Below, piece after piece: positions 549-61,856 of a DNA stretch of 64,000 nt; position 1 is the stretch's first letter, and each line of letters opens with the position of its first letter. The stretch is from Pseudanabaena sp. FACHB-1998. GTDB lineage: Bacteria; Cyanobacteriota; Cyanobacteriia; Pseudanabaenales; Pseudanabaenaceae. The stretch is taken from NCBI RefSeq assembly GCF_014696355.1, contig NZ_JACJQA010000026.1, forward strand, positions 1 through 64,000, written 5' to 3'. Position numbers and translations under genes: made by a program. A model generated the notes under the pieces. The model did no database searches, was not told the origin of the DNA, and saw only the letters and a list, made by a program, of their open reading frames with translations.

Positions 549-593
549 CCAAAACATGGATGACGACGCGTCGCGTCGTCATCCATGTTTTGG
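549..593. repeat. Palindrome, 22-base arms
   Basis: Arms 549-570 and 572-593 are exact reverse complements around a single T. The outer arm CCAAAACATGGATG resembles the CCAAAAC edges of other palindromes here. It lies between the tiny ORF and the synthetase. Confidence 0.9.
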
Positions 594-613
594 AGAGTTA
601 TTCTCAATCGAGT

Positions 614-662
614 CATAAAGAAACTGATTTGCCAGCTAAGCTGGCAAATCAGTTTCTTTATG
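614..662. repeat. Palindrome, 23-base arms, loop TAA
   Basis: Arms 614-636 and 640-662 pair perfectly. It ends 16 bases beyond the synthetase stop (minus strand), so it may terminate that transcript, although the following T-run is short. Confidence 0.85.
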
Positions 663-678
663 GACTTAATTATTGGTT

Positions 679-3600
679 TTAATTCTCTATGCACCACTTA
701 ATTTTTTCAATCCAGTCCTCCATGTGTTTTTCGTTTAAAAAATCAGGTTGCCAAAACATATTATGGTGACCAGGCAAGACAATTGTTCGGAGACGACCTT
801 TAATGTAACCCTGCCATCCATAGCTCGGAAATAGCCAAGACATATCCGAAATCAGAGGTAAGGGTGTAGTGGAATGATCACAAAATAGTAGTGTTACATT
901 TCCTTCGTAAACTTCTGGTATATAACCTTTTCTCACTTTCACAATAGAATCCCAAATCAGATCAACCTGTGATTGATCCTGTTCGCTACCGCTATTGAAG
1001 TTTTTAGGAGACTCCTCTTTAAGCGGCTTATCGACAGGGCTTCCTTCCTGTATATCAGCCAATAAAGCCTCATTCGTACCCCCCCCAGAAGTGCGCGGAG
1101 CAAATTTCGTAAGGGCTTTAGCCAAACGGTCTAAAACGTATCTCCTCCGTTCTAAAAAATTTCTTTGAGTTACGATATTAATTTCGCGTTCGTACAGCCC
1201 TTTTTTTTCAATTCTTCTATAGGAACTTTCTATAGAAGATTTTGTAGAGAGCTTTGATGAAGATCTGGGAATAAACTTTGCTAATTTCCTAGATAATCGC
1301 TCTGCTATGTAAAGAGACTGTTCCAAAAAACTTTTTTGAGTTAAATTTTGTAGATGTAATTTAACAGAAAAATATTTATACTCAAACTTGCGAGTTTGTT
1401 CCAGCAATTTATGATTAGGAAATTCTCTTTCAATTAAAATTAACTGGGATACTTGTTTGCCTAAAGTTTTTAATTGTTGGGCAATTTCATAGACTACCAA
1501 TGCATCAAAGCACCATCCTATAAGAACAAAAGAGCCAGATAATTCTGAGCTAATCAATTCTTTAGCGTAGGTATTAGCTACACGCTTAATATAGTCATAG
1601 GGGCTATTAACGACCCTGTAACCTGTAGAAGGAAAAACATAAGTCTCGTAAGAATCTGCAAATTGAGTAGCTAAGTTAGATAAACCCACCCAAATCAGTT
1701 TCTTTTCTGATGAAAACTGCTGAGCACTTAGTTTAGTTAGCAGAGAAAGAGTTCCTATTTGGACAACACCTTTAATGCTAATATTTCTGAGCATTAAATC
1801 TCGCAAATCATCATTATCAAGTAGACAATCATAATTTGTTGTTGTTGATTTTTTGTTAATCAATTTTACTAGATTTTCAATTGTAGAAATCTGTGGTAAG
1901 CTTGAAAATCTAATTAGTATATTTGCCTGTTTTTCTATCTCTGAAATAAGATGAGGGATTAACAAAGAATGCCCACCTAGTTCAAAAAAATCATCGGTTA
2001 TTCCAATCGGTTCATGTTGTAAAACCTCTTCCCAAATTTTAGCTAGTTGCTTTTCTAAATCAGTGCGGGGAGCAACATGCTCGTCTTTAAGTAAATAGGC
2101 TCCCTCAATGGTTGGCAAAGACTGTCTACTAAGCTTACCGTTAGGAGTTAAGGGTAAACTATCCAAAGCTATAAATCCTGAGGGAATCATGTAATCAGAT
2201 AAATTATTTTTCAAAAATGAACGTAATTTTCTGATACTAAATTCTGCTTTTTTATTAGTAACAATATAAGCGAAAATTCTATGCTCGCCTGACGGTAATT
2301 CTTGACTGGTTACGGCTACTTGTTGAACATCTGGGTATTGAGATATAACTGTTTCAATCTCTTCAAGCTCAACGCGCATTCCTCGAATTTTTACTTGAAA
2401 ATCCTGTCTTCCTAAAACTTGAATATCACCATTTGATAAGTAGCTTGCCACATCTCCTGTTTGATAAAGTCGAGAATATTCATGGTCATTTATGTCATTG
2501 GTTAAAACAAAGGGATTAACCATAAATTTGGTTTGATTTAGTCGTGGATTCTTAAAGTAACCACGAGCTAAACTAATACCTGATATATACAGATATCCGC
2601 TTTGTCCAACGGATACAGGCTGTAAATTTTCGTCCAGTATATAAACTTGATGATGATCATAGGCTTTCCCTACGGGTACATAGCCTTGCGTTTGGCTAAA
2701 GTCATCGGGAACCCTATAGGCACAAGCACCGATAGTTTCTGTTTGACCATAAATGTTAAATATTTGAGGATTAAGTAGATTAGATTTTTGATTTTTTTGT
2801 TCAAATGCATCTCGAACTTTTTTGAGTAGTTGACAAGGCAATAGTCCACCTGAGAACACAAGTATTCTTAATTTTGAGTTTAATAATGATTCTTTGGCAG
2901 AGCTTTCTTCTTTGGCTAATTCCAAAAGTATAAATTGCCAAACCGATGAAACTGTATCCAAGACAGTTACTTGTTCTCTTTGAATTAACTCTAATAATTC
3001 AATAGGATTTTTTGTGGTGTTATTCGGAGAAATAACTACTTTTGCCCCATTAAACAGAGGTAGAAATAATTGTCGAATTGATGAAGAGAATGAGAAAGAT
3101 GCTGTGTGTAAATAAATATCATCAGAATTAATGCCGATAATATTATTAAGGGATTTTATATAGCATTCGATTTGTGAATGAGTGATTTCTACGCCTTGAG
3201 GCTTACCCGTAGATCCAGAGGTATACATGATATAGGCAAGATCTTGGGGTAATATTTCTGGAGGATAAGAAATTTCTTGACTAGTAGATTGAGAAGATTG
3301 ATGGATATGATTAGAATCTGTTAGTGCTTGTTCTAGCTTATCTATTAAAACTAATTTAAGTTCTTGATTTGGGAGTGTTTGGGCGAGTTTCTCTTGAGTC
3401 AGAATGAGAGATAAGTCGCTTTCTTCTAAAATTATTGATAATCTTTCTTGAGGATAGTTGGGATCTATCGGAATAAACACTCCACCCGCTTTAAGAACGC
3501 TAATAATTCCAATAATCATGTCTAGCGATCGCTCTATAAAAATTCCTACCAGAAATTCTGAGGTAACTCCTATTTGTTGTAAATAACTGGCTAGGCGATC

Positions 3601-3708: not shown

Positions 3709-3760
3709 TTTTACTCAACCATTAAATAAGTACCGTGGCTTAATAAAAAATCAAAATCTC

Positions 3761-3801: not shown

Positions 3802-3804
3802 AAG

Positions 3805-3958: not shown

Positions 3959-4133
3959 TAGCCATCCTAAATAATTTGAGAAAGCACGCCCCTGTGGGGC
4001 GTGCTTTCTCAAATTATTTAGGATGGCTATTCAGCTTTTTGAAGCTTTGTGGGGTAAAGATAAATTTTAAAAAAGCTTACGAAGTAGGCTTTTTTAAAAT
4101 TTATCTAGGTTTTAAGAAAGCGCAAAGCGCTGT
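3959..4133. repeat. Two-hairpin dispersed element, copy 1
   Basis: A perfect palindrome with 34-base arms (3959-3992, 3996-4029; loop TGT) is followed by a second one (4058-4076, 4088-4106) and the tail GGTTTTAAGAAAGCGCAAAG. The same order of segments recurs, diverged, at 23806-23960. Reading frames through it are by-products. Confidence 0.8.
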
Positions 4134-4149
4134 TGCTATATCTGTATTT

Positions 4150-5852: not shown

Positions 5853-5883
5853 AAAAAAGGCGGCACGAAGCGCCGCCTTTTTT
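5853..5883. terminator. Intrinsic terminator, 12-base arms
   Basis: AAAAAAGGCGGC and GCCGCCTTTTTT pair around ACGAAGC just after the pentapeptide gene, with a T-run. Confidence 0.85.
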
Positions 5884-5887: not shown

Positions 5888-5918
5888 AAAGAATGGGACG
5901 CAAAGCGTCCCATTCTTT
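5888..5918. terminator. Terminator of the acetyltransferase gene (minus strand)
   Basis: Arms 5888-5900 and 5906-5918 pair perfectly and touch the stop of the next gene; the minus strand has a U-run after the stem. Confidence 0.8.
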
Positions 5919-6503: not shown

Positions 6504-6554
6504 CAAGAAATTTTTTGAAAGGGTTGCTTTGCAACCCTTTCAAAAAATTTCTTG
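6504..6554. repeat. Palindrome, 24-base perfect arms, loop TTT
   Basis: Arms 6504-6527 and 6531-6554, CAAGAAATT edge and TTGC core. It lies between divergent genes, so a terminator role is unlikely. Confidence 0.9.
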
Positions 6555-6637: not shown

Positions 6638-7045
6638 ATGAATTTGACTTTGACTCCATCGCAAATACTCCTCTATGGCATCGCGATCGCAGGGGGGCTG
6701 GTGTATTTGCCTTATATAGTTGTTGCTTATGGGCGTGTCAGTGTTGGCTTTGACATGAATGCGCCTAGAGCGATGTTCGATCGCCTGCCTGACTATGCCA
6801 AACGTGCGACATGGGCGCATCAAAATTCCTTTGAAACCTTTGCACTATTTGCGGCTGCCGCACTTACAACTTACGTCAGTAACTCATCTTCAGAGCAAAC
6901 TTCGCTCTATGTGTTAGCCTTTTTAGCAGCGAGATTGCTATTTAGTTTGTTTTATATTCTGGATTTGCCTTGGTTGCGATCGCCAATGTGGGCTATTAGC
7001 ATGGTGTGTATTGGCGGACTATTTTCATCAAGTCTTTTGCGATAA
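6638..7045 (+). CDS. MAPEG-family membrane protein, 135 aa
   Basis: Four hydrophobic segments (about 8-28, 62-82, 86-106, 114-134) with the MAPEG pattern AHQNSFETFALFAAA in the second. MAPEG proteins include microsomal glutathione transferases; bacterial YecN/MAPEG members are mostly uncharacterised. Located in the inner membrane. ATG at 6638 has no strong Shine-Dalgarno. Convergent with the phosphohexomutase gene, sharing a terminator. Confidence 0.85.
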   Translation: MNLTLTPSQILLYGIAIAGGLVYLPYIVVAYGRVSVGFDMNAPRAMFDRLPDYAKRATWAHQNSFETFALFAAAALTTYVSNSSSEQTSLYVLAFLAARLLFSLFYILDLPWLRSPMWAISMVCIGGLFSSSLLR

Positions 7046-7078
7046 AGAGAAGAGGCGCGATGCGCCTCTTCTCTTTAT
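7042..7078. terminator. Shared convergent terminator, 17-base arms
   Basis: Arms 7042-7058 and 7062-7078, loop GAT. It overlaps the stop codons of both flanking convergent genes. Confidence 0.85.
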
Positions 7079-8660: not shown

Positions 8661-8699
8661 CCATAGTTTTGTTGTGCCGTAGGTACAACAAAACTATGG
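8661..8699. repeat. Palindrome overlapping an alternative start of the mutase gene
   Basis: CCATAGTTTTGTTGT (8661-8675) pairs with 8685-8699 around GCCGTAGGT. In mRNA it forms a hairpin in the leader about 55 bases before the chosen start. Confidence 0.8.
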
Positions 8700-8745: not shown

Positions 8746-8788
8746 CCCCGAATAAATTGCTGCGCGAAGCGCAGCAATTTATTCGGGG
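8746..8788. terminator. Palindrome, 20-base arms, loop GAA
   Basis: Arms 8746-8765 and 8769-8788 pair perfectly. It directly follows the DUF1830 gene (minus strand) and probably ends its transcript. Confidence 0.75.
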
Positions 8789-10235: not shown

Positions 10236-10286
10236 ACACAAAACCAGAAGACGAGTTGCAGCGCAACTCGTCTTCTGGTTTTGTGT
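10236..10286. repeat. Palindrome, 24-base perfect arms, loop AGC
   Basis: Arms 10236-10259 and 10263-10286; outer edge ACACAAAACCAG, inner core GAGTTGC. Confidence 0.9.
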
Positions 10287-14521: not shown

Positions 14522-14578
14522 CAAAACCCAAGAATCGAATTGCGGCGCTTCGCGCCGCAATTCGATTCTTGGGTTTTG
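14522..14578. repeat. Palindrome, 27-base perfect arms, loop TTC
   Basis: Arms 14522-14548 and 14552-14578: outer CAAAACCCAA, unique middle, inner TTGCGGCGC. Preceded by TTAGGACAAA, as in the copy at 19420. Confidence 0.95.
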
Positions 14579-17587: not shown

Positions 17588-17624
17588 AAATAAAAAGGCT
17601 AATTATTTAATTCTTTGATTTTTT

Positions 17625-17661
17625 AAATAAAAAAGACTCGCATAGCGAGTCTTTTTTATTT
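17625..17661. terminator. metK terminator, 17-base arms, loop ATA
   Basis: Arms 17625-17641 and 17645-17661; it covers the metK stop and has a U-run on the minus strand. Confidence 0.85.
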
Positions 17662-18901
17662 ATGAGAGGCTCTTTTTGAGAATCTCGACCTTATCTAGAC
17701 GTTCCCAAGGAAGATCTAGATCATTACGTCCTAAATGACCATAGGCGGCAACATTTTGATAGAAGCGCCCACCTCTAGTGCTGGGCAAATTCTGTAAGTC
17801 AAAATTCTTGATAATCGCCGCAGGGCGTAAATCAAAATTATCCTTAACTAGACGCAACAGGGTGTCATCATCCACCTTGCCTGTTCCAAAAGTATCAATG
17901 TGCAAACTGGTAGGACGCGCTACTCCGATCGCATAGCTAATTTGTAACTCGCACTTGCTAGCCAGACCCGCCGCCACAATATTTTTTGCCGCATAACGAG
18001 CCGCATAAGCCGCACTGCGATCGACCTTTGTGGGATCTTTGCCAGAGAAAGCACCACCACCATGTCGGGCATAGCCGCCATAGGTGTCAACAATAATTTT
18101 GCGTCCAGTCAGCCCCGAATCCCCTTGAGGTCCCCCGATCACAAACTTGCCTGTGGGGTTAACCAGATAACGAGTTTCATCGCTAGGCTTAACTGAAGTA
18201 TCGGCAAAGCTAGGCAAAACCACATGAGTCCAAAGATCAGCCTTGATTCTTTCTTGGACTTTTGCTTCTTCGCTCACCCCATCGATCGCCGCATCATGCT
18301 GCGTCGAAAGGAGAATCGTATCGATCGCTACGGGCTTATTGTTTTCATAAACTACAGTTACCTGTGTTTTGCCATCAGGACGTAAATAGGGCAAAGTGCC
18401 ATTTTTACGAACTACGGATAACTGACGAGCTAAACGGTGTGCCAAAGCGATCGGCATCGGCATAAATTCAGGAGTTTCGTCACAGGCAAACCCAAACATG
18501 ATCCCTTGGTCGCCAGCACCAACTGCCTCAAGGGCAGCATCTTCTTCTTCACCTGTGCGGGCTTCGAGGGCAACGTTAACGCCTTGAGCAATGTCAGGGG
18601 ACTGCTCATCAAGGGCTACCATTACCGCACAGCTATTTGCTGAAAAGCCGTTATCTGCGTTGGTATAACCAATTTCAGCAATTTTTTTACGAGCAATATC
18701 GACGTAATTGACATGCGCTTTTGTGGTGATTTCCCCAGTGATCAAGACCAGCCCTGTGTTGACCACAACTTCAGCAGCGACACGCGATCGCGGATCTTGA
18801 GCCAGTAGGGTATCGAGAATCGTGTCGGAAATCTGATCGCAAATTTTATCAGGATGTCCTTCAGTCACCGACTCAGATGTAAATAAGAAGCGACTAGCCA
18901 A
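17660..18901 (-). CDS. metK: S-adenosylmethionine synthetase
   Basis: Makes S-adenosylmethionine from methionine and ATP. 413 residues, normal length. Signatures: [19 protein letters not shown] near the start, [10 protein letters not shown] (about 127-136) and [19 protein letters not shown]. The start is a TTG (18899-18901): AGGAGG lies 8 bases upstream and no ATG fits. The leader has a direct repeat that may be regulatory. Opposite, across a 0.65-kb gap with three palindromes, is a YbjN-like gene, then a homocysteine-synthesis gene. Confidence 0.96.
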
Positions 18902-19066: not shown

Positions 19067-19121
19067 AAAACCCAAAAAGCGAGTTGCGGCGCTTCGCGCC
19101 GCAACTCGCTTTTTGGGTTTT
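19067..19121. repeat. Palindrome, 26-base perfect arms, loop TTC
   Basis: Arms 19067-19092 and 19096-19121: AAAACCCAA edge, unique AAAGCGAG, GTTGCGGCGC core; preceded by TTAGGACA. Confidence 0.95.
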
Positions 19122-19222: not shown

Positions 19223-19287
19223 AATATAAAAAACCAAAACCTGTGGCGCACGCGCAGCGTGCGCCACAGGTTTTGGTTTTTTATATT
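19223..19287. repeat. Palindrome, 31-base perfect arms, loop GCA
   Basis: Arms 19223-19253 and 19257-19287; best copy of the AAAACCTGTGGCGCACGC family. Confidence 0.95.
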
Positions 19288-21401: not shown

Positions 21402-21442
21402 CAAAAAAGAAGAGAATCGCTAAGCGATTCTCTTCTTTTTTG
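21402..21442. terminator. Palindrome, 19-base perfect arms, loop TAA
   Basis: Arms 21402-21420 and 21424-21442 end in T6, a good intrinsic terminator for the DUF39 gene. Confidence 0.8.
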
Positions 21443-21463: not shown

Positions 21464-21516
21464 AAACCCAAAGATGGAGTTGCGGCGCTTCGCGCCGCAA
21501 CTCCATCTTTGGGTTT
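21464..21516. repeat. Palindrome, 25-base perfect arms, loop TTC
   Basis: AAACCCAA edge, unique AGATGGA, GTTGCGGCGC core. Confidence 0.95.
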
Positions 21517-24270: not shown

Positions 24271-25575
24271 ATGTTCTGGACAGCAGATCGGATTTACTCT
24301 CAAGGCATTGAACAGGCTCAAAAAAGAATCTATGAATTCTTTTTGGATATCGTGCGACAGAAATCCCCAGAAGTAGTGTTAGCAGAATTTAAACACTTAT
24401 TCATCAACTTTGGCGATCGCCGAAATCCTGAAATATTACAAGCTCTCGACCAGATTTTAACAGCTTATAACGAGAAAGAGTTTTTCTATACTTTAAGAAG
24501 ATGCTGTTACATTCTCATTAACAACTGGTCAGTCAGTAGTAATCGTATTTATATTCAATACCTCATTGATCTATTTCATCATCCCTCGATTTCCAAAAAG
24601 ACTAATTCTAGCAAACTAAAAACTCTAAGGATTTGGTTGCAGCTATTTATTGATAGCGAAGATTTTCAATATTTAAAACTATTTACTTTATATCTTGATG
24701 GTGATAACAGAGAGGAGCGTAATTGGAGCGATCGCTTTGCTTCTTACCTATTGGCATATCACTACACTAATCCGACTAGTTCGTTGGAGCAAAGACAGGC
24801 TGCTAACTTATTAGCCTATAAGATGAAGGAGAAATTCAAGTTTGACTTGGCGATGTATACTGCCAGAATTGGAGGGGTAGATAGACAACATGGGACTATT
24901 AATAACCCCACTAGTTTGAGTGATAATGTTATTAATTTAGTTACATTGTTGTTAACTAAGAAGAGTGTGTTAAATTGCCAAGATTTGTCTAGTCAGTTTG
25001 TTAAAAAGAGCAGTCAAGTTTTATATTCTGACTATAAAATCCATCTTTTAAAGTATCTTGACTTTTCGATTGCTGATGCGGAAATATCGGAAACGGTACA
25101 AAACAAAATTTATGATAGTTTGTGGCAACTAAAAGCCGAACGTCATGATTTTTGTCCTAATTCTGCTTTGATTTTAAGGACTTCTAAGCATTTAATCCAC
25201 GATATTACAATTAGCGATCGCGGACATCCCACAGAGTTATTTAATATTTTATTGCATCATACAAATCCCCTAAATCTTGTGGTCTTATTGCTCAAGATTT
25301 TGTTGATTAATGATGCGATTCGCCCATATCTAGAGTTGAAAATTGCTTCGATTATTAAATATTACAGTCGATATAGTGAGTCGAAATGTAAGTCGGTCAT
25401 CGCCTTTATTGATATGTTGAATATTGCGCTAGCGCTTTATGCTGGTGAAACTCGCTATAACATTGTGAGAATGAATCCTTATGTAAGTGATGACAAAAAT
25501 ACTGATGATACGGATTCTCTAATTTCTCAATTTGATATGCAGGAATATCGGATTTTTTCTCAAGCAATTAGCTAA
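24271..25575 (+). CDS. Uncharacterised helical protein, 434 aa
   Basis: Not recognised. No signal peptide, membrane span or catalytic motif was seen; the predicted character is all-helical with many aromatic and leucine positions. Segments like FFLDIVRQKSPEVVLAEF and GGVDRQHGTINNPTSL stand out. A well-placed AAAGGAG (24255-24261) supports the ATG at 24271. HIP1 sites and ordinary codon use suggest a resident gene. A 31-base palindrome just after the stop may act as terminator. Probably a conserved cyanobacterial family. Confidence 0.8.
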   Translation: MFWTADRIYSQGIEQAQKRIYEFFLDIVRQKSPEVVLAEFKHLFINFGDRRNPEILQALDQILTAYNEKEFFYTLRRCCYILINNWSVSSNRIYIQYLIDLFHHPSISKKTNSSKLKTLRIWLQLFIDSEDFQYLKLFTLYLDGDNREERNWSDRFASYLLAYHYTNPTSSLEQRQAANLLAYKMKEKFKFDLAMYTARIGGVDRQHGTINNPTSLSDNVINLVTLLLTKKSVLNCQDLSSQFVKKSSQVLYSDYKIHLLKYLDFSIADAEISETVQNKIYDSLWQLKAERHDFCPNSALILRTSKHLIHDITISDRGHPTELFNILLHHTNPLNLVVLLLKILLINDAIRPYLELKIASIIKYYSRYSESKCKSVIAFIDMLNIALALYAGETRYNIVRMNPYVSDDKNTDDTDSLISQFDMQEYRIFSQAIS

Positions 25576-25640
25576 GTAGCAATAACTTAAAAGAGAGAGG
25601 CGGCGCACTGCGCCGCCTCTCTCTTTTAAGTTATTGCTAC
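25576..25640. terminator. Shared convergent palindrome, 31-base perfect arms, loop ACT
   Basis: Arms 25576-25606 and 25610-25640; GAGAGGCGGCGC core. It ends inside the stop codon of the DUF29 gene. Confidence 0.9.
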
Positions 25641-26134
25641 TATTCAGGCAAATAATCTTCATCTAAAACTTGAGATGCTGCGAAAGGAGATGTAACAGGA
25701 AAAGCATCTACGGCGATACCTGTCTCCACTGAAGCGAGTTTTCTTGCCTCTAGATAGACATCAGCGAACTCTTCTAGGAAATATCTTTTGAGGCTAGGGC
25801 TATTTTTAAAAGCCTTGTGGATTCTTTGACGGTGTTCGACTATGGTGAAGCGCCAACTATTAGATCTTTTGTCGGGTTGGTATTGATATTTGAGTAAGTG
25901 CATGAGCAAAATTTTGAGATTACTTTCTAACGCTTGTTTTTGGCTATTACTCATGTCTTCAATTTCTTCAAGCAAATTCTCTAAATCTAAATCCTTAAGA
26001 TTGCCCTCACGCAGTAGTTCTAAAGCTTTCTCGATCCATAGACAAAAATCTTGTTCATAGAGATCGTGATGGGATATTGCTTGTTGAGGTTGAGCTTGAT
26101 TTTCTGCTTGAGTTGTGTCAGAGGCGATCGCCAT
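25640..26134 (-). CDS. DUF29 protein, 164 aa
   Basis: A DUF29 domain from about residue 22: LYEQDFCLWIEKALELLREG, then LDLENLLEEIEDMSNSQKQA, LLMHLLKYQYQPDKRSNSWRF and a C-terminal helix pair. DUF29 proteins are small helical bundles, abundant in cyanobacteria and often near mobile or toxin loci; function unknown. Related to the gene at 61888. The extra N-terminal part is Gln/Ala-rich. ATG at 26134. Convergent with the unknown helical protein. Confidence 0.9.
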   Translation of the reverse strand: MAIASDTTQAENQAQPQQAISHHDLYEQDFCLWIEKALELLREGNLKDLDLENLLEEIEDMSNSQKQALESNLKILLMHLLKYQYQPDKRSNSWRFTIVEHRQRIHKAFKNSPSLKRYFLEEFADVYLEARKLASVETGIAVDAFPVTSPFAASQVLDEDYLPE

Positions 26135-26191: not shown

Positions 26192-26240
26192 CAAATAAAA
26201 AAGAGAAGCGGCGCTTTGCACCGCTTCTCTTTTTTATTTG
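26192..26240. terminator. Terminator of the aldehyde dehydrogenase gene, 20-base arms
   Basis: Arms 26192-26211 and 26221-26240 with loop CGCTTTGCA; it covers the stop of the next gene. Confidence 0.8.
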
Positions 26241-27729: not shown

Positions 27730-27780
27730 CAAGAAAATTTTTGAAAGTGCTGCGATGTAACACTTTTAAAAATTTTCTTG
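27730..27780. repeat. Palindrome of CAAGAAAAT family in a divergent gap
   Basis: CAAGAAAATTTTTGAAAGTG (27730-27749) pairs with 27761-27780 with one mismatch; the core CTGCGATGTAA has decayed. Confidence 0.8.
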
Positions 27781-27941: not shown

Positions 27942-28742
27942 ATGGCAATTATTGGCGGCATCTTAATCATCATCGGTATTGTTCTGTTTTTCGTGCAGAA
28001 AAACTACAGCACCAAGTTACAAAGTATTCGCTCGGCAACTGGTTCTACTATTGCGGAATTGCAAAACATTGCTGGCGCGATCGCGGGTGAGATTGGAAGT
28101 GGCAATCTACGGGAATATGTGAAAGTGCGGGGCAAAATCTGCACTGATCATCCTCTCATCTCCGAATTGAAGCAATCTCCCTGTGTTCATTACACCATGA
28201 AAGTTGTGAGGGAATATGAGGAGCAACATGTCACCCACGATAGTGAAGGTAAAAGCCGTACCGAAACTCGGCGAGGTTCCGAAACTATATCTAGCAATAG
28301 TCAATCTATTCCATTTACATTACAGGATCGTTCAGGAGAAATGATTGTTAATCCTGACGGTGGCAATATTGAGACAGTGCAAATTCTGGATGAATTTCGT
28401 TCAGAAAATTCTAGCAGTACATCTATATCCTTCGGTGGTTTTACTTTATCCACGGGATCTAACTTTGGTAATGGTAGACGCACGATTGGTTATCGCTATA
28501 CCGAGTCAATTTTGCCCTGCGATCGCGAAGTTTTGGTAATCGGTACAGCCGCCGATGAGGGAGGTCAATTAACGCTTCGCAAACCGATTCAATCGGACAA
28601 AAAGTTTATCATTTCTCTCAAGAGTGAAGAAGAACTCGCCAAGTCTACTGCCAATGCTGTTCAAGGGTTCTTTTATGGAATGGTTGGCTGTTTGGCTAGT
28701 GGTTCGGTGTTATTGATTTTAGGCTTAATTCTCAAGAAATAA
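27942..28742 (+). CDS. GIDE-domain membrane protein, 266 aa
   Basis: One N-terminal membrane span (2-17), a large exposed domain and a C-terminal span (about 238-262): the GIDE/MULAN-like arrangement. The domain shows YVKVRGKI, SPCVHYTMKVVREYEE and the RYTESILPCDREVLVIGTA ending typical of the family, while the RING of eukaryotic forms is absent. Function in bacteria is unknown. ATG at 27942. Convergent with mcrB, sharing a terminator. Confidence 0.85.
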   Translation: MAIIGGILIIIGIVLFFVQKNYSTKLQSIRSATGSTIAELQNIAGAIAGEIGSGNLREYVKVRGKICTDHPLISELKQSPCVHYTMKVVREYEEQHVTHDSEGKSRTETRRGSETISSNSQSIPFTLQDRSGEMIVNPDGGNIETVQILDEFRSENSSSTSISFGGFTLSTGSNFGNGRRTIGYRYTESILPCDREVLVIGTAADEGGQLTLRKPIQSDKKFIISLKSEEELAKSTANAVQGFFYGMVGCLASGSVLLILGLILKK

Positions 28743-28777
28743 AAAAGGCGGCGCATTGCGCCGCCTTTTTTATTTCT
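28735..28777. terminator. Shared convergent terminator, 20-base arms, loop ATT
   Basis: Arms 28735-28754 and 28758-28777, AAAAAAGGCGGCGC stem; U-run in both directions. Confidence 0.9.
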
Positions 28778-34766: not shown

Positions 34767-37394
34767 TTAGGAAGTTTTAGATTTTGCTTCGATCGCTTCG
34801 AGGCGACTCTTTAGCGATTGATTATCCTTACGCAATTGATCGAGTTCCTCACGTAATTGTTTTAACCCTGCATCCTTGCCGATCGCCTTCTGCACTCGTT
34901 GAATTGCTTCATCGGCAACTCGGCGCACCCGACCATCGGGAGTGGAATCCGATAGCGATCGCAAGACCCCAATTGCGCCAGCGCTATCGACTTGCCCCAA
35001 TGCCGCAACCACTGACATTTGCGTTAAGAAGAAGGTTTCCTGCGCGATGATTTGCAAACGATTGAGAATCTGCTCGGTTTTGGGCTTTGTTTGCGATTTG
35101 CCCATTGCACCGAGAGCGCGAATGGCGGCAAGACGTAAGGGCTGAGGCACATCAGGCTCCGTGTATTTAATCACGGTTTCTAAAGCTTCGTCGGAATCTT
35201 TAATTTTCGCTAAACCAGCGATCGCGCCTGAACGCACTACTTCATTCCATCCCGAACGCTCCTTAAGTACGGTTTGCAACAGCTTCACCACCTTAGATGG
35301 TTCGCGATCGGCACTGAGCGCCGCCGCCAATTCACCCGTCAATCTGGCTGCATTTGCCTCGACCGTGTAGCTAGGATCGCCTTTCTTGATAAAGGGCTTG
35401 ATCAAGTCCAAACTCTTCTGCACCTTATTTTGGGCTAAGCCACTGAGAACGGCATTTCTCACCTTGGCATTAGGATCTTCTAATCCCTTTGCTAAAGCTT
35501 CAAAGGCTTGATCGAGTTTAATCGTTGCCAGATTATCGGCAATTTCTACCCGCACGCCCCAGAACTTTTCATCAATGAGGGCTTGACCGAGAGCTTTCAC
35601 CGCTTCTAGCCCGCCTTTTTTTGCAAGAGCTTCGGCGCATTGAATACGGGCGAGGGGGTCGGGGTCAAATTGCAAACCTGCTTTGAGTTCCGCTACTCCA
35701 TATTCGAGGGTGACCTGTTTGAGATAATTATTGCCGCGATCGAAGCTAATGTATTGAGGTTTTGTTTTTAAAGGGAAGTAGAAAGCCTGTTCTTTCTCAA
35801 ATACTTTAACTGTAAAAACTTGTGGTTCTCCCTCTTCAAAGCCAAAACCAATGGGAATCTTCAGATCAAAGAGTTCATCTTGAGTTTGAGCAACTGTAAC
35901 CTTCGCCAAGTTGTTATCACTATCCCAGCTATAGCCCACCTTATATTCAGGATGTCCACCTCGGAAGACATATTGATCGAAAAGGAACATACAGTTTTTG
36001 CCTGTCGCTTCTTCGATCGCCCTTAATAAATCAATGGTTTCCACAGTTTTGTGAGCATTAGTCTGTACAAAATGATGAATCGCTTTCCAGAATAGAGCAT
36101 CACCTAACTCGGTGCGGAGCATGTGATAAACACAGCCGCCCTTCTCGTAAATGTGGCGATCGTATAGCTCGATCGCTTCTCGATAGACATGGGTAACCAT
36201 CGGACGACGGTAGCGATCGCGATCTTCGGCTAGATAACTTCTCGCCTCACCGAGACGATAATAGGCGGCTTCTTCGGCTCCATATTCATGATCTGTCCAC
36301 AGCACCTCTGCATAGGTGGCGGCTCCTTCCTTAACCCAAGCGTGTGACCAATGCTTAATCACCAATAAGTCGCCAAACCATTGATGGGCGAGTTCATGGG
36401 CAACGAGGCTTTCGCTAAAGCGATTATCCAGTGCGGCTCTCGCATCGAGAACACAGCGATCGGTTAACAGAGTTGCGGAAGTATTTTCCATTCCGCCGAA
36501 AATAAAATCCGCTACACAAACCTGTGCATATTTCGGAAAAGCATAATCGTAACCATACTTCTCACTGAAAAATTCAATCATGCGCGGAGTTTTACCCATT
36601 GTCAAGATCGCTTCTTCTTGACTGCGAGATTTATCCACATAGTAGGTAACGGGCTTCCCTTTCCATACATCCTTAACTTCAAGGAAATCACCGATCGCTA
36701 GGGTCATCAGATAGCTAGGATGGATTTCCTTTTGCGACCAATGATAGGTCTTCTCTTTTTTATAATCCTTAACCTCGATCAGTTCTCCATTAGAAATTAC
36801 CGTCAATTCCTTCGGCACGCGGATCGAGATTTCGGAAGTGGCGAGTTGTCCGGGGTAATCAAAGCAGGGGAACCAATAGCGCGAATCCTCATCTTCTCCC
36901 TGTGTCCAAACCTGTGTAGGTTTATTGGGCTGATGTTCCGTTGGTTTTACAAAATAGATGCCCCGTTGAGGTTGCTCGGCAGCATAGGCGATCGCAATTT
37001 CTAGCGGTACACCTGCGCGAGTTGGCTCATTTAGATAAATTTTTAGAAATTCGCCATCATAATCAAACTTGCTTTTTGTCTTGTCAGGATCGGGCTTGGC
37101 TTCGATCTGAGTATTAATTTCGACATGATCGATCCGCAAATTCACTGCATCCAAGGTCAAATCGCTAATCCCATCACGCACAGGATTAAGGCGGATTTTG
37201 CAAGTACCTGCGATCGCTTGATTGGGAATGTCCAGCACTAAATCGAGGGCAATATGCTCAACTTGTCCTGGGCGATCGGGATTGTAATGAGGCTTCGCCC
37301 CCGGTAACTGAAAAGATTTATGCTTTTTCGATTTGTCACTTTCTCCGTCCCAAAAACCTAATTCCAAATGGCTTTCCCACGATTTGCGTGTCAT
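34767..37394 (-). CDS. M1-family zinc aminopeptidase with HEAT repeats, 875 aa
   Basis: N-terminal beta domain, then the catalytic domain with GGMENTSATLLTD and the zinc site HELAHQWFGDLL with the third ligand Glu in WVKEGAATYAE. Residues about 560-830 contain HEAT-like helical repeats (VKALGQALIDEKFWGVRVEI and similar), and the C-terminus is a coiled coil (LKQLREELDQLRKDN). The enzyme removes N-terminal residues from peptides. The true start is probably the ATG at 37394; a TTG three codons upstream is possible. Confidence 0.92.
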   Translation of the reverse strand: MTRKSWESHLELGFWDGESDKSKKHKSFQLPGAKPHYNPDRPGQVEHIALDLVLDIPNQAIAGTCKIRLNPVRDGISDLTLDAVNLRIDHVEINTQIEAKPDPDKTKSKFDYDGEFLKIYLNEPTRAGVPLEIAIAYAAEQPQRGIYFVKPTEHQPNKPTQVWTQGEDEDSRYWFPCFDYPGQLATSEISIRVPKELTVISNGELIEVKDYKKEKTYHWSQKEIHPSYLMTLAIGDFLEVKDVWKGKPVTYYVDKSRSQEEAILTMGKTPRMIEFFSEKYGYDYAFPKYAQVCVADFIFGGMENTSATLLTDRCVLDARAALDNRFSESLVAHELAHQWFGDLLVIKHWSHAWVKEGAATYAEVLWTDHEYGAEEAAYYRLGEARSYLAEDRDRYRRPMVTHVYREAIELYDRHIYEKGGCVYHMLRTELGDALFWKAIHHFVQTNAHKTVETIDLLRAIEEATGKNCMFLFDQYVFRGGHPEYKVGYSWDSDNNLAKVTVAQTQDELFDLKIPIGFGFEEGEPQVFTVKVFEKEQAFYFPLKTKPQYISFDRGNNYLKQVTLEYGVAELKAGLQFDPDPLARIQCAEALAKKGGLEAVKALGQALIDEKFWGVRVEIADNLATIKLDQAFEALAKGLEDPNAKVRNAVLSGLAQNKVQKSLDLIKPFIKKGDPSYTVEANAARLTGELAAALSADREPSKVVKLLQTVLKERSGWNEVVRSGAIAGLAKIKDSDEALETVIKYTEPDVPQPLRLAAIRALGAMGKSQTKPKTEQILNRLQIIAQETFFLTQMSVVAALGQVDSAGAIGVLRSLSDSTPDGRVRRVADEAIQRVQKAIGKDAGLKQLREELDQLRKDNQSLKSRLEAIEAKSKTS

Positions 37395-37461: not shown

Positions 37462-37518
37462 TGAAAATCCAGAAAAGGACAAAATGGCTATGCCATTTTG
37501 TCCTTTTCTGGATTTTCA
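37462..37518. repeat. Palindrome, 27-base perfect arms, loop TAT
   Basis: Arms 37462-37488 and 37492-37518, ATGGC core. It lies between the aminopeptidase start and the bciB stop. Confidence 0.95.
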
Positions 37519-37528: not shown

Positions 37529-37569
37529 AAACAAGAAGTTGCGGCACGAAATGCCGCAACTTCTTGTTT
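37529..37569. terminator. bciB terminator, 18-base arms
   Basis: Arms 37529-37546 and 37552-37569, loop CGAAA, next to the bciB stop at 37571. Confidence 0.85.
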
Positions 37570-41259: not shown

Positions 41260-41303
41260 TGCTACTTAAACGACTATAGGGGACTGCATTACAATCAAAA
41301 GTC

Positions 41304-41342
41304 GATTTTTTGAGGAGTGGCGAAGCCACTCCTCAAAAAATC
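41304..41342. repeat. Palindrome, 18-base perfect arms, loop GAA, in a divergent gap
   Basis: Arms 41304-41321 and 41325-41342; GAGGAGTGGC stem. Confidence 0.9.
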
Positions 41343-41429
41343 GGGTTCTTGATTAAATAGCAGAATCCATAGCTTTTATTCTGACAGATTTTCCTTTACG
41401 ATAGCTTGAGATATTTCTCGGAAAAAGTC

Positions 41430-43016
41430 ATGGCCTCGGATGTCAAAACTTTAGCGGCGATCGATGTTGGGACAAACTCCATCCACATGGTAATTGTCCA
41501 AATTAAGACCTCGATTCCTAGTTTCAGCGTCATTGAATCAGAAAAAGCAACGGTGAGATTAGGTGAGCGCTGCCCTCAGACAGGGAATCTGACAGAAGAT
41601 GCCATTCATCGTGCTATAGAAGCTCTAAGGCGATGTCAAGAAATCTGCCGCACCCAAAGAGTTGAGGAAATTGTTGCCGTCGCCACTAGTGCTACTCGCG
41701 AGTCTCCTAATGGGACTGATTTTATTCGGCGTATTTACGAAGAATTAGGATTGCATGTGGAAGTGATCTCAGGGCAGGAGGAAGCTCGCAGGATCTATCT
41801 GGGGGTAATTTCGGCGATGGAACTCAAGGATGAGCCACATATTTTGATTGATATTGGTGGTGGCTCGACGGAGATGATCTTGGGGGATGGGCGCGATCCG
41901 CTATATCTCAGTAGTACGAAGATTGGGGCGGTGAGATTAACGGATTTATTTATTACCTCCGATCCCATATCACCAATGGAGTACGATCGCCTATTAGGTT
42001 ACATTCATGGTTCGATTGAGCGTCCTACCGATGATTTGAGAATACTTCTCAAAGATAATTCTGAAGGAAAGCTCTTAAAAGCGATCGGCACATCAGGAAC
42101 CATCGAAACTCTTGCCTTACTCCACGCAAAGGAAAAACTGGGAACGATTCCTACCTCCATGCATGGCTACGAAGTCCCCTTTGCAGACTTAGAAAATATT
42201 GTCTGGCGATTGCGGCGAGCTAATTTAGAGGAACGCACGGCTTTAGTACGACAAAAACGCGCAGAAATTATTTTAGCGGGAGCTTTAGTTCTTTTAGAAA
42301 CGATGCGCTTGTTGGGAGTTCCTAAAATCATTCTCTGTCAAAGGGCTTTGCGCGAAGGCTTAGTGGTGGATTGGATGATTCGTCACGGCTATATTGAGGA
42401 TGGATGGCGCTATCAAAGTACGATTCGCGATCGCAGTATTCTCAAATTGGCGGATAAGTATGGCATTGATGTGAAGTATGCCAAGCAGGTTGCCGAACAT
42501 GCCTTGAGTTTATTCGATCAAACGAGAGGGATTTTCCATGAGTGGGAAGACGATGAACGCCATTTGCTGTGGGCGGCTGCCATGCTGCACAATTCAGGAC
42601 ATCATATTAGCCATGATGCTCACCACAAGCATTCCTATTATTTAATTCGCAATGGCGAATTGTTGGGGTATACAGAGTCAGAAATTGAAGCGATCGCCAA
42701 TCTTGCTCGTTACCATCGTAAGAGTGAGCCGAAGAAAAAACATGATAATTTCCAAAGACTAGGCAATGAGCGTCTCAAGCTATTTGTGCGCCAAGCCAGT
42801 ACTTTTTTGCGCTTAGCGACGGCTTTGGATCGGCGGCAAATTGGGGCGATCGCTTCTATTCGCGTAGTTTGCAATCCCCGCACGCGCACCTGTGGTCTAA
42901 GTCTTTTACCCCGTCAGCATCATGATCCTTGCACCTTAGAGCTTTGGAGTCTTGATTATAAAAAACAACCTTTTGAATCGCAGTTTAACGTTACGCTGTC
43001 AGTATCATTAGAGTAG
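41430..43016 (+). CDS. ppx: Ppx/GppA phosphatase family protein, 528 aa
   Basis: N-terminal ASKHA fold (AAIDVGTNSIHMVIV; DIGGGSTEMILGDG; GTSGTIETLA) with Glu in SGQEEARRIYLG; the C-terminal part resembles an HD domain (LHNSGHHISHDAHHKHSYYLI). The family hydrolyses polyphosphate or pppGpp; the length and HD part suggest exopolyphosphatase. The likely start is ATG 41430; a TTG lies 8 codons upstream. Monocistronic, with the stop inside a palindrome. Confidence 0.92.
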   Translation: MASDVKTLAAIDVGTNSIHMVIVQIKTSIPSFSVIESEKATVRLGERCPQTGNLTEDAIHRAIEALRRCQEICRTQRVEEIVAVATSATRESPNGTDFIRRIYEELGLHVEVISGQEEARRIYLGVISAMELKDEPHILIDIGGGSTEMILGDGRDPLYLSSTKIGAVRLTDLFITSDPISPMEYDRLLGYIHGSIERPTDDLRILLKDNSEGKLLKAIGTSGTIETLALLHAKEKLGTIPTSMHGYEVPFADLENIVWRLRRANLEERTALVRQKRAEIILAGALVLLETMRLLGVPKIILCQRALREGLVVDWMIRHGYIEDGWRYQSTIRDRSILKLADKYGIDVKYAKQVAEHALSLFDQTRGIFHEWEDDERHLLWAAAMLHNSGHHISHDAHHKHSYYLIRNGELLGYTESEIEAIANLARYHRKSEPKKKHDNFQRLGNERLKLFVRQASTFLRLATALDRRQIGAIASIRVVCNPRTRTCGLSLLPRQHHDPCTLELWSLDYKKQPFESQFNVTLSVSLE

Positions 43017-43049
43017 ATAGGTTTGGCGCTTTGCGCCAAACCTATCTAC
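43013..43049. terminator. Palindrome at the ppx stop, 17-base arms, loop TTT
   Basis: Arms 43013-43029 and 43033-43049; the TAG stop (43014-43016) lies in the left arm. Confidence 0.85.
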
Positions 43050-45167: not shown

Positions 45168-45232
45168 CAAACCCAAATTATACAAATGAAGAAATGGCTA
45201 TGCCATTTCTTCATTTGTATAATTTGGGTTTG
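45168..45232. repeat. Palindrome, 31-base perfect arms, loop TAT
   Basis: Arms 45168-45198 and 45202-45232; CAAACCCAAA edge and ATGGC core, so it combines two families. Confidence 0.95.
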
Positions 45233-45271: not shown

Positions 45272-45321
45272 AAGAGATTTATTAAAAGTGTTGCTTTTGC
45301 AACACTTTTAATAAATCTCTT
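45272..45321. repeat. Palindrome, 23-base arms, loop TTTT
   Basis: Arms 45272-45294 and 45299-45321; AAGAGATTTATTAAAAG edge and TTGC core. Between antiporter and oxidoreductase genes. Confidence 0.9.
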
Positions 45322-46596: not shown

Positions 46597-46655
46597 AAGC
46601 CAAGAAATATTTAAAGAAGCTTGCTTTGCAAGCTTCTTTAAATATTTCTTGGCTT
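46597..46655. repeat. Palindrome, 28-base perfect arms, loop TTT
   Basis: Arms 46597-46624 and 46628-46655; AAGCCAAGAAAT edge and TTGC core. Confidence 0.95.
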
Positions 46656-47772: not shown

Positions 47773-47809
47773 AGAGAGAGTTGCGGCGCTTCGCGCCGCA
47801 ACTCTCTCT
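47773..47809. terminator. Palindrome, 17-base perfect arms, loop TTC
   Basis: AGAGAGAGTTGCGGCGC and its complement; just past the glycosyltransferase stop. Confidence 0.85.
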
Positions 47810-51795: not shown

Positions 51796-51828
51796 AGTAA
51801 AAGGGGGCGCTTTGCGCCCCCTTTTACT
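51796..51828. terminator. Terminator of the EcfT gene, 15-base arms, loop TTT
   Basis: AGTAAAAGGGGGCGC and its complement. A worn repeat of it follows at 51833-51910 (TTGGGAG, then a CGGGGCTTCGCGCCG core). Confidence 0.85.
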
Positions 51829-56044: not shown

Positions 56045-56078
56045 AATTAACAAAAGTGTAATGTCACTTTTGTTAATT
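56045..56078. repeat. Inverted repeat, 14-base arms
   Basis: Arms 56045-56058 and 56065-56078 around TAATGT; no terminator function is expected in this divergent region. Confidence 0.75.
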
Positions 56079-57313: not shown

Positions 57314-57362
57314 ACCCAAAATAAAAGTGGCAGTGCTTCGCACTGCCACTTTTATTTTGGGT
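57314..57362. terminator. por terminator, 23-base perfect arms, loop TTC
   Basis: ACCCAAAATAAAAGTGGCAG edge and AGTGC core, after por. Confidence 0.85.
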
Positions 57363-58633: not shown

Positions 58634-58646
58634 CAATGCAAGACCC

Positions 58647-58685
58647 AAGGATAAGTTGCAGCGCTTCGCGCCGCAACTTATCCTT
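58647..58685. terminator. Palindrome after the phytase-like gene, 18-base arms, loop TTC
   Basis: AAGGATAAGTTGC with GCGC core; one mismatch. Confidence 0.75.
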
Positions 58686-58809
58686 CAGGTTTATGGTTTC
58701 CCAAGATTCTTGGGATTTATAGTTTCAAATTTACAAAGATCTGATACATTTTGCTTAGATCAATTGAGATCGCTACATAACTTTAGGGTAAGCATCTGAG
58801 GTTGCTACC

Positions 58810-59661
58810 ATGTCACAAAATCCATTAGTTGAACAGGCAAAACAAGGCAACGTAAACGCGATCGCTTCGTTAATGAATCGATTGCTCAAATCTCAGGGGA
58901 TGTTAGCCAATGTTGAGCGCGAAGGCGATCGCCTTGAGATATTAATTGAGTCTGATCTACGATCACTAGATGATGAAGTCCGCATTCCGAAGCGGCAGGT
59001 ACTAGTGGGCATGATCAAAAAATGGTTTATCACCCTTGAAGTGCAAACAATTTCCAGCCTCAGAATTTCTTGGCAACAAACAGGATTTGTCGAACCTGCA
59101 TGGACAGATGAGGTTTATTTAGTAGATCAGGCTGCTCAAAATGTGCAAACTAACGATGAAGTTAGTCAAAATGGCGGAATCACCGAGCCTCTACAAAGAC
59201 CTAAAATACCACCTCTACCAGTATTTCCGCCACCACCTATGCGTGACCAAGAGCGTAATCCTCGCGATCGCTTCCCTAGCGATCAGCCCGCAGCTGAGTC
59301 TCCAGATTTAGACGAAATGTTTGGTGAAGCTAATACTCCTAAGCCCTTAGAACTTCCCAATCCCAATTTAACTAATACTTGGGAAACCGATAACTCTTCT
59401 CAGGATTCTGGTTTTCTCCTTCTATCTGACATTCCGCCTACAGCGAATGAAGAACTCAACAATTTCCAGTCCGACAATAAATTGGGCGGCAATTTCTCTT
59501 GGAAAATGATTTCCCAGACTCCAAGTTTTGCGATCCAGTTTGTGCAGTATTTAGTGATTTGCGGTGTAATCATCCTGTCATTACGCAGTATTCACGCCAT
59601 CTTTGGGAGTCATTCTAGTAAAGCAACCTCAATTGCGCCCCAAACTGTCGTTAAGACTTAA
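58810..59661 (+). CDS. Conserved cyanobacterial protein with one C-terminal membrane span, 283 aa
   Basis: Residues 1-110 form a folded domain (NPLVEQAKQGNVNAIASLMNR; RLEILIESDL; AWTDEVYL), which occurs widely in cyanobacteria with unknown function. Then a Pro/Asn/Asp-rich linker and one membrane span (about 242-262) near the end. Probably membrane-anchored with the main domain in the cytosol. ATG at 58810. Confidence 0.75.
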   Translation: MSQNPLVEQAKQGNVNAIASLMNRLLKSQGMLANVEREGDRLEILIESDLRSLDDEVRIPKRQVLVGMIKKWFITLEVQTISSLRISWQQTGFVEPAWTDEVYLVDQAAQNVQTNDEVSQNGGITEPLQRPKIPPLPVFPPPPMRDQERNPRDRFPSDQPAAESPDLDEMFGEANTPKPLELPNPNLTNTWETDNSSQDSGFLLLSDIPPTANEELNNFQSDNKLGGNFSWKMISQTPSFAIQFVQYLVICGVIILSLRSIHAIFGSHSSKATSIAPQTVVKT

Positions 59662-59722
59662 TTAGTAAAGCTTAGGAAAAACTTGCGAAAGCCCCTTAAG
59701 AATGTGTTTCGTCTTATAAATT

Positions 59723-59775
59723 ACCAAAAACTGTAAAGTTGCGCCTCCACGGGGCGCAACTTTACAGTTTTTGGT
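59723..59775. terminator. Palindrome, 23-base perfect arms
   Basis: ACCAAAAACTGTAAAGTTGC edge (59723-59745) pairs with 59753-59775 around TCCACGG. Confidence 0.85.
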
Positions 59776-59917
59776 TTGCAATTAATTATGTCTAGCTACT
59801 TAGAGAGTGGCTATACAGCCATATCAAAGATTTACGCGATCGCCTAATTAACCTATGCTCACGTTGTCTTGCCTTACGCGCTAAAGTATAGAAGGCAACG
59901 TTCTTAAGTTGATTTCT

Positions 59918-61708
59918 GTGCAAGAAGATTTTCGATTAATTGTTGATTTAGTAACTGTTCTTGCGGCTGCTTCGTTTGGTGGCTTACTGGCGGCGGCGCT
60001 GCGATTACCAGTTTTATTGGGCTACATCTTTGGTGGCATTGTGGTTGGCCCTACGGGCTTAGGACTGATCAAAGAACTGATTCAAGTGGAAACCCTAGCC
60101 CAGTTTGGGGTTGCCTTTTTGTTGTTTGCCCTTGGTGTGGAATTCTCGCTAAAACAATTAAATAAGGTGAGAGCGATCGCTCTCGGAGGAGGCACATTAC
60201 AAATCCTGTTGACGATCGCCTTCACCGCAGCGGTCTCCGTGTTTGTGGGATGGGTGGATACGCCAACACAGGGCATTTTCCTTGGTGGTATCTTATCGCT
60301 CTCCTCAACGGCGGTAGTACTGCGAAGCCTGATGGAAACCAATGAAACCGAGTCAGCACAGGGACAGGTAACCTTGGGGATCTTGATTATTCAAGATTTG
60401 GCTTTAGGCTTAATGCTGGCGGTCTTGCCTGCCCTCGATCATCCTGAATCCGTAGGGACGGCGGTGGCTCAGGCGTTACTGGTTACGGCTTTATTTGCTG
60501 GGGCGGCGATCGCCGCAGGGATATGGCTAATACCCCCGTTTTTGCGATGGGTGGCGAGTACCGAAAGTCGCGAATTATTTTTGCTGAGTGTGATTGTCCT
60601 CTGTCTGGGAATTGCTCTATTGACTGAGCATTTAGGACTCTCCATTGAAATGGGCGCATTCGTGGCAGGTTTGATGATTTCGGAGGTGGAATACGCCGAT
60701 CAAGCCCTCACCTATGTCGAACCCCTACGGGATGTGTTTGCCACATTGTTTTTTGCAGCGATTGGGATGCTGATTGATCCCCTGTTTTTAATTCAAAACT
60801 GGGAATTGATCCTGAGTCTTGTGGCGATCGTGATGTTGGGTAAATTCTTGATCGTTGTGCCATTGGTGAGCTTTTTCCGCTATCCCCTACGGGTGGCAAT
60901 TTTTGCAGGTTTGGGGCTAGCCCAGATTGGAGAATTTTCCTTTGTATTGGCTAGCGAAGGGCAAAAATTAGGTTTGGTTTCGCGTCGAGTTTATCTGTTG
61001 ATTTTAGGAACAACAGCCGTAACTTTGATGGTCACACCGTTTTTACTCAAGGCAACTCCCCAAATTTTGCTATTACTCGAAAAAGTCCCACTCCTTAAGG
61101 ATTGGATGAATAAACTGGATATGCCGCAAGAGCTTTCGTCAAATGCTGAACTGAAGGATCATGTGGTAGTGTGCGGCTACGGAAGAATTGGACAAGGTAT
61201 TGTTGCTTTGTTGCAGTCTAAGGGGTATCCAGTTTTAGTAATTGAAGATGCCGAATCTAAGGTGCAGATGCTGCGATCGCAAAATATTCCCTACTTATAT
61301 GGAAATTGTGCGAGTCCCTTGGTACTCGAAAAAGCCGAAATCGACCATGCGCGATCGATGCTAATTGCCATTTCTGATCCGATCGCCACCAGACTAGCGG
61401 TGCAAAGAGCGATTAGTCTTTCGCCAGAAATAGACATAGTGGCTAGAGCCGATAAAGACGCTGATATCGATACGCTGTATCAATTTGGCGCGAAGGAAGT
61501 TGTGCATCCGACCTTTGAGGCAAGTTTAGAGCTAACTACTCATTTACTAATTTGTTTGGGCGAAAGTACTACGGATATTCAAGCCGAACTCATTGGCATC
61601 CGCCGCAGTCGTTATGCAAATTTCCGTCCTGAAATTGCCTGCGTCCTGCCCACGCCTCTTTTGCTAACGCCTAGCCCAAATCTAGCGGAGATCGATAAGG
61701 CTTCCTAA
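59918..61708 (+). CDS. Cation:proton antiporter (CPA2/KefB-type) with TrkA-N domain, 596 aa
   Basis: About 12 membrane spans (to about 385) with QFGVAFLLFALGVEFSL and VTLGILIIQDLALG, then a TrkA-N domain starting HVVVCGYGRIGQGIVALLQ (about 412) that binds NAD(H) and controls opening. Functions in K+/H+ exchange. The likely start is the GTG at 59918 (VQEDF), agreeing with homologues that begin MQEDF; a TTG lies three codons before. Confidence 0.92.
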   Translation: MQEDFRLIVDLVTVLAAASFGGLLAAALRLPVLLGYIFGGIVVGPTGLGLIKELIQVETLAQFGVAFLLFALGVEFSLKQLNKVRAIALGGGTLQILLTIAFTAAVSVFVGWVDTPTQGIFLGGILSLSSTAVVLRSLMETNETESAQGQVTLGILIIQDLALGLMLAVLPALDHPESVGTAVAQALLVTALFAGAAIAAGIWLIPPFLRWVASTESRELFLLSVIVLCLGIALLTEHLGLSIEMGAFVAGLMISEVEYADQALTYVEPLRDVFATLFFAAIGMLIDPLFLIQNWELILSLVAIVMLGKFLIVVPLVSFFRYPLRVAIFAGLGLAQIGEFSFVLASEGQKLGLVSRRVYLLILGTTAVTLMVTPFLLKATPQILLLLEKVPLLKDWMNKLDMPQELSSNAELKDHVVVCGYGRIGQGIVALLQSKGYPVLVIEDAESKVQMLRSQNIPYLYGNCASPLVLEKAEIDHARSMLIAISDPIATRLAVQRAISLSPEIDIVARADKDADIDTLYQFGAKEVVHPTFEASLELTTHLLICLGESTTDIQAELIGIRRSRYANFRPEIACVLPTPLLLTPSPNLAEIDKAS

Positions 61709-61724
61709 TCATATCTACTCTGCA

Positions 61725-61747
61725 TAGACAGCACGGAGCGCTGTCTA
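61725..61747. repeat. Short hairpin after the antiporter
   Basis: TAGACAGC (61725-61732) pairs with GCTGTCTA (61740-61747). Possible weak terminator. Confidence 0.55.
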
Positions 61748-61821
61748 ATCCTCGACCTTTTGTGGGACAAGCAGAACTGATCTATGATTGCAAAGAAAGC
61801 TATTTAGACATAATGCAAAAT

Positions 61822-61856
61822 CAAAACATGTGGCGCACGCTGCGCCACATGTTTTG
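61822..61856. repeat. Palindrome, 16-base perfect arms, loop CGC
   Basis: CAAAACATGTGGCGCA and its complement, of the AAAACCTGTGGCGC family. Confidence 0.85.

Follow-up and report, generated by a model that had tools for sequence, protein, structure and literature searches.

Introduction

In yeast coding genes, template switching homogenizes the arms of quasipalindromes and inverts the spacers between them, including TTC to GAA and back, and perfect arms usually precede the inversion (PMC8604942). According to the same paper, template switching in bacteria favored transversions. RNA hairpins are also created and maintained by template switching, and loop inversion is taken as the signature of its interstrand form (PMC8794818). 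Here, long palindromes (inverted repeats with a short loop) were studied in a 64,000-nucleotide stretch of Pseudanabaena sp. FACHB-1998, contig NZ_JACJQA010000026.1; this whole stretch is called the window below, and the genome was placed in Pseudanabaena by its named relatives. We consider it likely that template switching during replication corrects the arms and inverts the spacers of two kinds of hairpin in this genus, namely the centers of elements resembling miniature inverted-repeat transposable elements (MITEs) and shorter hairpins at gene ends.

Arm homogenization and spacer inversion occur in Pseudanabaena as in yeast, where ten inversion events were found among coding genes (PMC8604942), whereas 48 of 177 intergenic palindromes differed by inversion between two close Pseudanabaena relatives. 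Compensatory changes at the DNA level are shared with RNA hairpins, but inversions there are rare (69 clusters) and loops conserved, while in Pseudanabaena inversions are common and the loops appear free to turn (PMC8794818). The small inversions of plastids are likewise intergenic, repeated and reversible flip-flops of a loop between inverted arms, in DNA of cyanobacterial descent. They were found at eleven sites in 20 plastomes, with loops of 4-24 bp, whereas hundreds per genome, mostly with three-base loops, are expected in Pseudanabaena (PMC6824564). Repetitive extragenic palindromes (REP), REPINs and MITEs of bacteria are also dispersed extragenic palindromes, and shared ends and cores were found here too; in contrast to REP and REPIN sequences, Pseudanabaena has many different perfect arms, and no imperfect hairpin tagged with GTAG or CGTC was recognized (PMC3116915, PMC3733652, PMC10969869). 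HIP1, the octamer GCGATCGC, is another abundant palindrome of cyanobacteria, but it is contained in none of the 32 perfect palindromes of the window (PMC4390886). That paper on HIP1 was the nearest among the matches listed in the open PubMed Central literature, which included no paper on these Pseudanabaena palindromes (subscription journals and preprints lay outside the scope). Each signature is known singly, from yeast, ribosomal RNA genes and plastids; what is new is the density, the speed and the arm-length threshold.

Results

Two close relatives, G025 and G023, were compared over 435 kb in 11 paired blocks. Outside palindromes they differ at 0.535% of aligned bases (2,165/405,043), with a transition to transversion ratio of 1.97. 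The blocks contained 177 and 186 palindromes, of which 168 and 172 were mappable. When these were merged by position, 177 orthologous pairs were obtained, and in 48 of them the loop was exactly reverse-complemented. The loop was the same in 106 pairs, otherwise different in 10, of another length in 8 and missing in 5. Merging by sequence instead gave 45 inverted loops in 175 pairs, and loops of at least three bases alone gave 38 in 134. Ten of the 48 inverted loops are 1-2 bases long, where a single change could mimic an inversion. At the inverted loops, the arms and flanks were unturned and in place. The inverted spacers include some of 7, 9 and 11 bases, the last being the longest, and some retained their inner mismatches (C77 79702, C78 67944), which is what copying of the entire spacer from the opposite strand would produce. 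Loop inversion was also seen between G021 and G002, which are other assemblies.

Inversion depended on arm length, as seen for loops of 3-9 bases in G025 and G023. The inverted fractions were 2/34,824 for arms of 3-5 bp, 1/611 for 6-8 bp, 1/35 for 9-11 bp and 0/19 for 12-14 bp, followed by 6/20 for 15-17 bp, 9/23 for 18-20 bp, 4/11 for 21-23 bp and 2/11 for arms of at least 24 bp. Summed, this was 1/54 at 9-14 bp versus 21/65 at 15 bp or more. Some of the three inversions with arms of 3-8 bp (3/35,435) are inner parts of longer imperfect palindromes.

The arms themselves changed in pairs. Among 3,099 arm pairs in G025 and G023, five paired differences were found, while about 0.03 would be expected from two independent changes at the background rate of 0.00535. 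The sites, two of the five being transversions, include positions 48135 and 64259 of G025 contig C78 and 14524 of contig C129. The first-pass annotation, made from the window sequence, had proposed counting paired against one-sided changes in orthologous copies, and this count supported its suggestion that the arms may be continually corrected. Twenty-six comparisons at about 90% identity, retained because arm identity was at least 0.75 and pairing at least 0.85, yielded 32 paired differences, of which 20 were transversions, and 28 one-sided ones, of which 8 were. The loops in these comparisons were the same in 10, inverted in 6 and otherwise different in 10.

We propose that once the arms reach about 15 bp, a replicating strand would repeatedly switch template between them. 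Where one arm is copied from the other, a mismatch would be erased or made symmetric; where the strand moves over to the opposite strand and back again, the spacer would be copied upside down. Template switching between arms predicts correction, spacer inversion and a dependence on arm length, and these three marks of a template-switch hot spot were all found here. The fold-back template switching suggested in the first-pass annotation, whose interpretation was partly supported overall, was supported for switching between arms, as seen from the inverted loops and co-varying arms; growth of arms by copying neighboring sequence was not observed. Rough rates, good to an order of magnitude, are about 0.2 inversions per palindrome and about 0.5 corrections per mismatch, each for one lineage over 0.27% divergence. 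The balance they imply is about 1% mismatched pairs, compared with an observed 0.36% in our own-genome sample and 0.72% in relatives.

Several points weigh against this proposal. One-sided differences between G025 and G023 (33 in 6,198 arm bases) occurred at the background frequency; therefore, protection of the arms is not seen at 0.5% divergence, and correction looks slower than inversion. The G025 genome was assembled from a metagenome, and the comparison was made between assemblies. The 26 comparisons at about 90% identity overlap between species and are not independent: 8 or more of the 32 paired differences repeat one event in a second species. Selecting for good pairing also favors conserved palindromes in this set. 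A similar palindrome was present at the orthologous place in only 85 of the 190 records mapped at this identity, and several of these 85 were degenerate; the other 105 had none. Some of the multi-base arm differences could reflect the replacement of one element by another. Finally, the identification of replicative template switching as the agent, in preference to some other reaction of hairpins, is an inference.

The density of palindromes was determined in 464 kb of the FACHB-1998 genome, consisting of the window and 20 stretches of 20 kb. This sample contained 213 perfect palindromes with arms of at least 12 bp and loops of up to 10 bases (0.46/kb), while a first-order Markov simulation of the same 464 kb gave 0. 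The search against a random control proposed in the first-pass annotation thus placed the palindromes beyond chance. Loop length was odd in 200 of the 213 and three bases in 127. Mismatches were found in 15 of 4,144 arm pairs (0.36%). In 20 genus relatives, each sampled in one 20-kb stretch around the same gene, the density was 0.10-0.75 per kb, and 18 of 2,503 arm pairs were mismatched (0.72%). Outside the genus, the first 20 kb of contig 1 from 19 genomes contained 14 palindromes in 378 kb (0.037/kb; a twentieth contig, of 267 bases, was left out). In 250 kb of Escherichia coli K-12 there were 6 perfect palindromes, all with arms shorter than 15 bp.

The triloops of the own-genome sample were GNA or its complement in 70 of 126 cases, and the closing pair was C-G in 121 of 126. 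Loops of the d(GNA) type are very stable in DNA, and the triloop composition looks as though DNA hairpin stability mattered.

By the same definition, the window contains 32 perfect palindromes with arms of 12-34 bp. Loops had three bases in 20, one base in five, seven in two, nine in two, and four, five and six bases in one each. The first-pass annotation had put the number with a loop of exactly three bases at 29 or more, which was too high: 20 have an arm of at least 14 bp and a three-base loop. All eight of its example sites were found, although the one at 25576 has an arm of 33 bp and a one-base loop and spans 25575-25641, and the divergent gaps it named matched the list of open reading frames (ORFs). 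An Rfam scan of the window gave 0 matches over the gathering score. Each line below gives a perfect palindrome from the inverted-repeat search, except that 27730-27780 comes from a separate look at that site; gene context was taken from the ORF list, cores from a core search and remarks on other genomes from comparison with relatives.

549-593: arm 22, loop 1
614-662: arm 24, loop 1
3959-4029: arm 34, loop 3
5853-5883: arm 12, loop 7; left arm A-rich, right arm T-rich, beside a gene 3′ end (terminator-like)
5888-5918: arm 14, loop 3; directly adjoins the 3′ end of a gene
6504-6554: arm 24, loop 3; divergent gap
7042-7078: arm 17, loop 3; overlaps the 3′ ends of convergent ORFs
8661-8699: arm 15, loop 9
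8746-8788: arm 20, loop 3 (GAA)
10236-10286: arm 24, loop 3
14522-14578: arm 27, loop 3; arms and center resemble the dispersed core family
17624-17662: arm 18, loop 3; terminator-like A-tract/T-tract hairpin between two genes
19067-19121: arm 26, loop 3; 23-base core inside, center of a MITE-like element, divergent gap
19223-19287: arm 31, loop 3; divergent gap
21402-21442: arm 20, loop 1
21464-21516: arm 25, loop 3; 23-base core inside
25575-25641: arm 33, loop 1; overlaps the ends of convergent genes
26192-26240: arm 20, loop 9
27730-27780: arm 20, 11-base center with inner mismatches (not among the 32); divergent gap
28735-28777: arm 21, loop 1; terminator-like A-tract/T-tract hairpin in a convergent gap
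37462-37518: arm 27, loop 3
37529-37569: arm 18, loop 5; next to the 3′ end of a gene
41303-41343: arm 19, loop 3 (GAA); divergent gap that in relatives carries different palindromes or none
43013-43049: arm 17, loop 3; at the 3′ end of a gene we take to be Ppx/GppA-like; differs by paired changes from the orthologous hairpin in G004 and G022
45168-45232: arm 31, loop 3
45272-45321: arm 23, loop 4
46597-46655: arm 28, loop 3
47773-47809: arm 17, loop 3; 23-base core inside
51796-51828: arm 15, loop 3
56045-56078: arm 14, loop 6
57314-57362: arm 23, loop 3
59723-59775: arm 23, loop 7
61822-61856: arm 16, loop 3

For position and similarity, 228 palindromes with at least 14 matched pairs were taken from the own-genome sample and compared with genes from our own simple gene caller (coding fraction 0.70, some genes missed). 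Only two of the 228 fell inside a called gene, in agreement with the intergenic location described earlier. Two populations could be told apart by position. The 86 palindromes within 20 bp of a gene 3′ end, out of 165 with a flanking gene 3′ end, had a median arm of 18 bp, and 43% had a BLAST neighbor at E ≤ 1e-9. The median arm was 24 bp in divergent gaps and 22 bp elsewhere, and 82% of these palindromes had such a neighbor. TTTTT on either strand was found in 31% of the 86 hairpins near 3′ ends, 41% of 39 divergent ones and 30% of 79 others, and the T-run enrichment that would mark terminators was therefore absent near 3′ ends relative to the other classes. Because T runs were not enriched, the terminator label rests on position, and by position the short hairpins beside gene 3′ ends are probably intrinsic terminators. 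Palindromes occupied 44 of 53 convergent gaps and 26 of 51 divergent gaps; therefore, a terminator role cannot account for all of them, as the first-pass annotation had argued from the divergent gaps.

Selection on RNA hairpins alone, in terminators or messenger RNA 3′ ends, could keep the arms paired, with compensatory changes arising singly through G-U intermediates. The frequency of palindromes near gene 3′ ends and in convergent gaps fits such selection, as does a base bias in which left arms are A-rich and right arms T-rich toward the outside. We consider RNA selection alone very unlikely, since loop inversion in 48 of 177 pairs is neutral for pairing and has no cause under this explanation; these inversions refute RNA selection as the sole cause. 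Moreover, paired changes were mostly transversions (20/32 at about 90% identity, and 2/5 between G025 and G023), which G-U intermediates do not produce, and palindromes also lie in divergent gaps. The 15 arm mismatches of the own-genome sample were evenly divided, with 8 G-T and 7 A-C and no favored strand apparent in these small numbers.

The palindromes are a mixture of MITE-like element centers and shorter gene-end hairpins. A 23-base core occurred 118 times in the FACHB-1998 genome and was present in 24 of 25 genus relatives and in 0 of the 32 other genomes searched. At several of the 30 loci inspected, it was the middle of an element of about 130 bp with the ends TATAGC...GCTATA. Subtypes of this element showed symmetric differences in both arms, and hybrids of two subtypes existed. 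Among the 30 loci, the loop stood in both orientations relative to the element end (D end left in 10, right in 5), a pattern consistent with flipping though no proof of it. A further, 102-bp palindrome-bearing element was present in G025 (contig C124, L099-L100 joined, 36347-36381) and absent from G023; its ends are TAAGTAGCT/AGCTACTTA, and the one empty site showed no target-site duplication. The shared ends, the copy number and this case of presence and absence suggest that many palindromes are the centers of dispersed MITE-like elements. Many copies with shared terminal inverted repeats were found for the core family, not for all palindromes. The earlier view that spread by transposition was excluded was therefore not supported.

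With 80-bp flanks, 173 of the 228 palindromes had a BLAST neighbor in the sample at E ≤ 1e-6 and 55 were singletons; 92 had a counterpart arm of comparable length with an identity of roughly 80% or higher. The claim that the arms are unlike those of other sites was thus half true. Recent mobile-element copies, perfect because they are young, with inversions representing independent insertions in the other orientation, would account for the 118 cores, the shared ends and the 102-bp element. However, 55 palindromes had no relative in the sample, the palindromes of G025 and G023 stood at the same base in the same flanks with the loop alone turned, and orthologous palindromes persisted at about 90% identity with symmetric differences. 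Recent copying is therefore a highly improbable explanation, and transposition of a single family as the sole cause was ruled out by the singletons and the symmetric changes in place.

Two Y1 transposase genes were found in the FACHB-1998 genome (L202:2913-3452 and L201:3047-3856). Their proteins scored 80.7 and 69.6 bits against the REP-associated tyrosine transposase (RAYT) model NF047646, whose cut-off is 80. One palindrome lay within 900 bp of each gene, and cores were not clustered at either. With one protein just over the cut-off and one below, the link to a REP/RAYT origin was weak.

Loss of SbcCD was considered as a reason for the palindrome load, but the opposite was seen: a second SbcCD-type pair was present. 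A second SbcD scored over the cut-off in FACHB-1998 and in 24 of 25 genus relatives (not in G012). This protein is of the Bacillus type and is rarely found outside the genus: 32 genomes there contained no second full-length SbcD, G030 having two partial hits, and among 291 searched, a relative of it was found in seven (G123, G129, G149, G154, G211, G225 and G282). In FACHB-1998 the gene lies at L200:6805-8025 on contig C41, with several palindromes around it. In most of the genus an additional full-length SbcC-like protein was found, which, like the first, scored below the curated cut-off. It adjoins the second SbcD in at least seven genomes, though not in the FACHB-1998 assembly.

A hairpin nuclease or resolvase could cut extruded cruciforms and rejoin the hairpin turned, with the second SbcCD as a genus-specific agent and no need for replication. 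The distribution of the second pair in and outside the genus is compatible with this route. On the other hand, one gain in one genus is a correlation with n = 1, inversion of a whole palindrome would swap mismatches instead of correcting them, and the paired changes would be left unexplained. We therefore regard a nuclease acting without replication as having very little chance of being correct.

Discussion

The second SbcCD-type pair and the palindrome load are linked by correlation only. It is conceivable, though unlikely, that an active route of hairpin processing, perhaps based on the second SbcCD, operates in Pseudanabaena and turns and repairs palindromes so frequently that they serve as reversible flip sites throughout the genome; such a route would allow the genus to tolerate a load of palindromes not seen in other cyanobacteria.

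Rare events are the usual basis for inferring template switching at inverted repeats, whereas two close Pseudanabaena genomes yielded dozens of inversions. With this many inversions and an arm threshold of about 15 bp, the rate, direction and genetic control of the process become measurable in a natural system. The findings also serve as a warning that perfect, co-varying hairpins in bacteria need not imply selection on RNA. Small inversions in plastid hairpin loops were reportedly described by Kim and Lee in 2005, and the flips in Pseudanabaena provide a cyanobacterial counterpart to these plastid flip-flop inversions.

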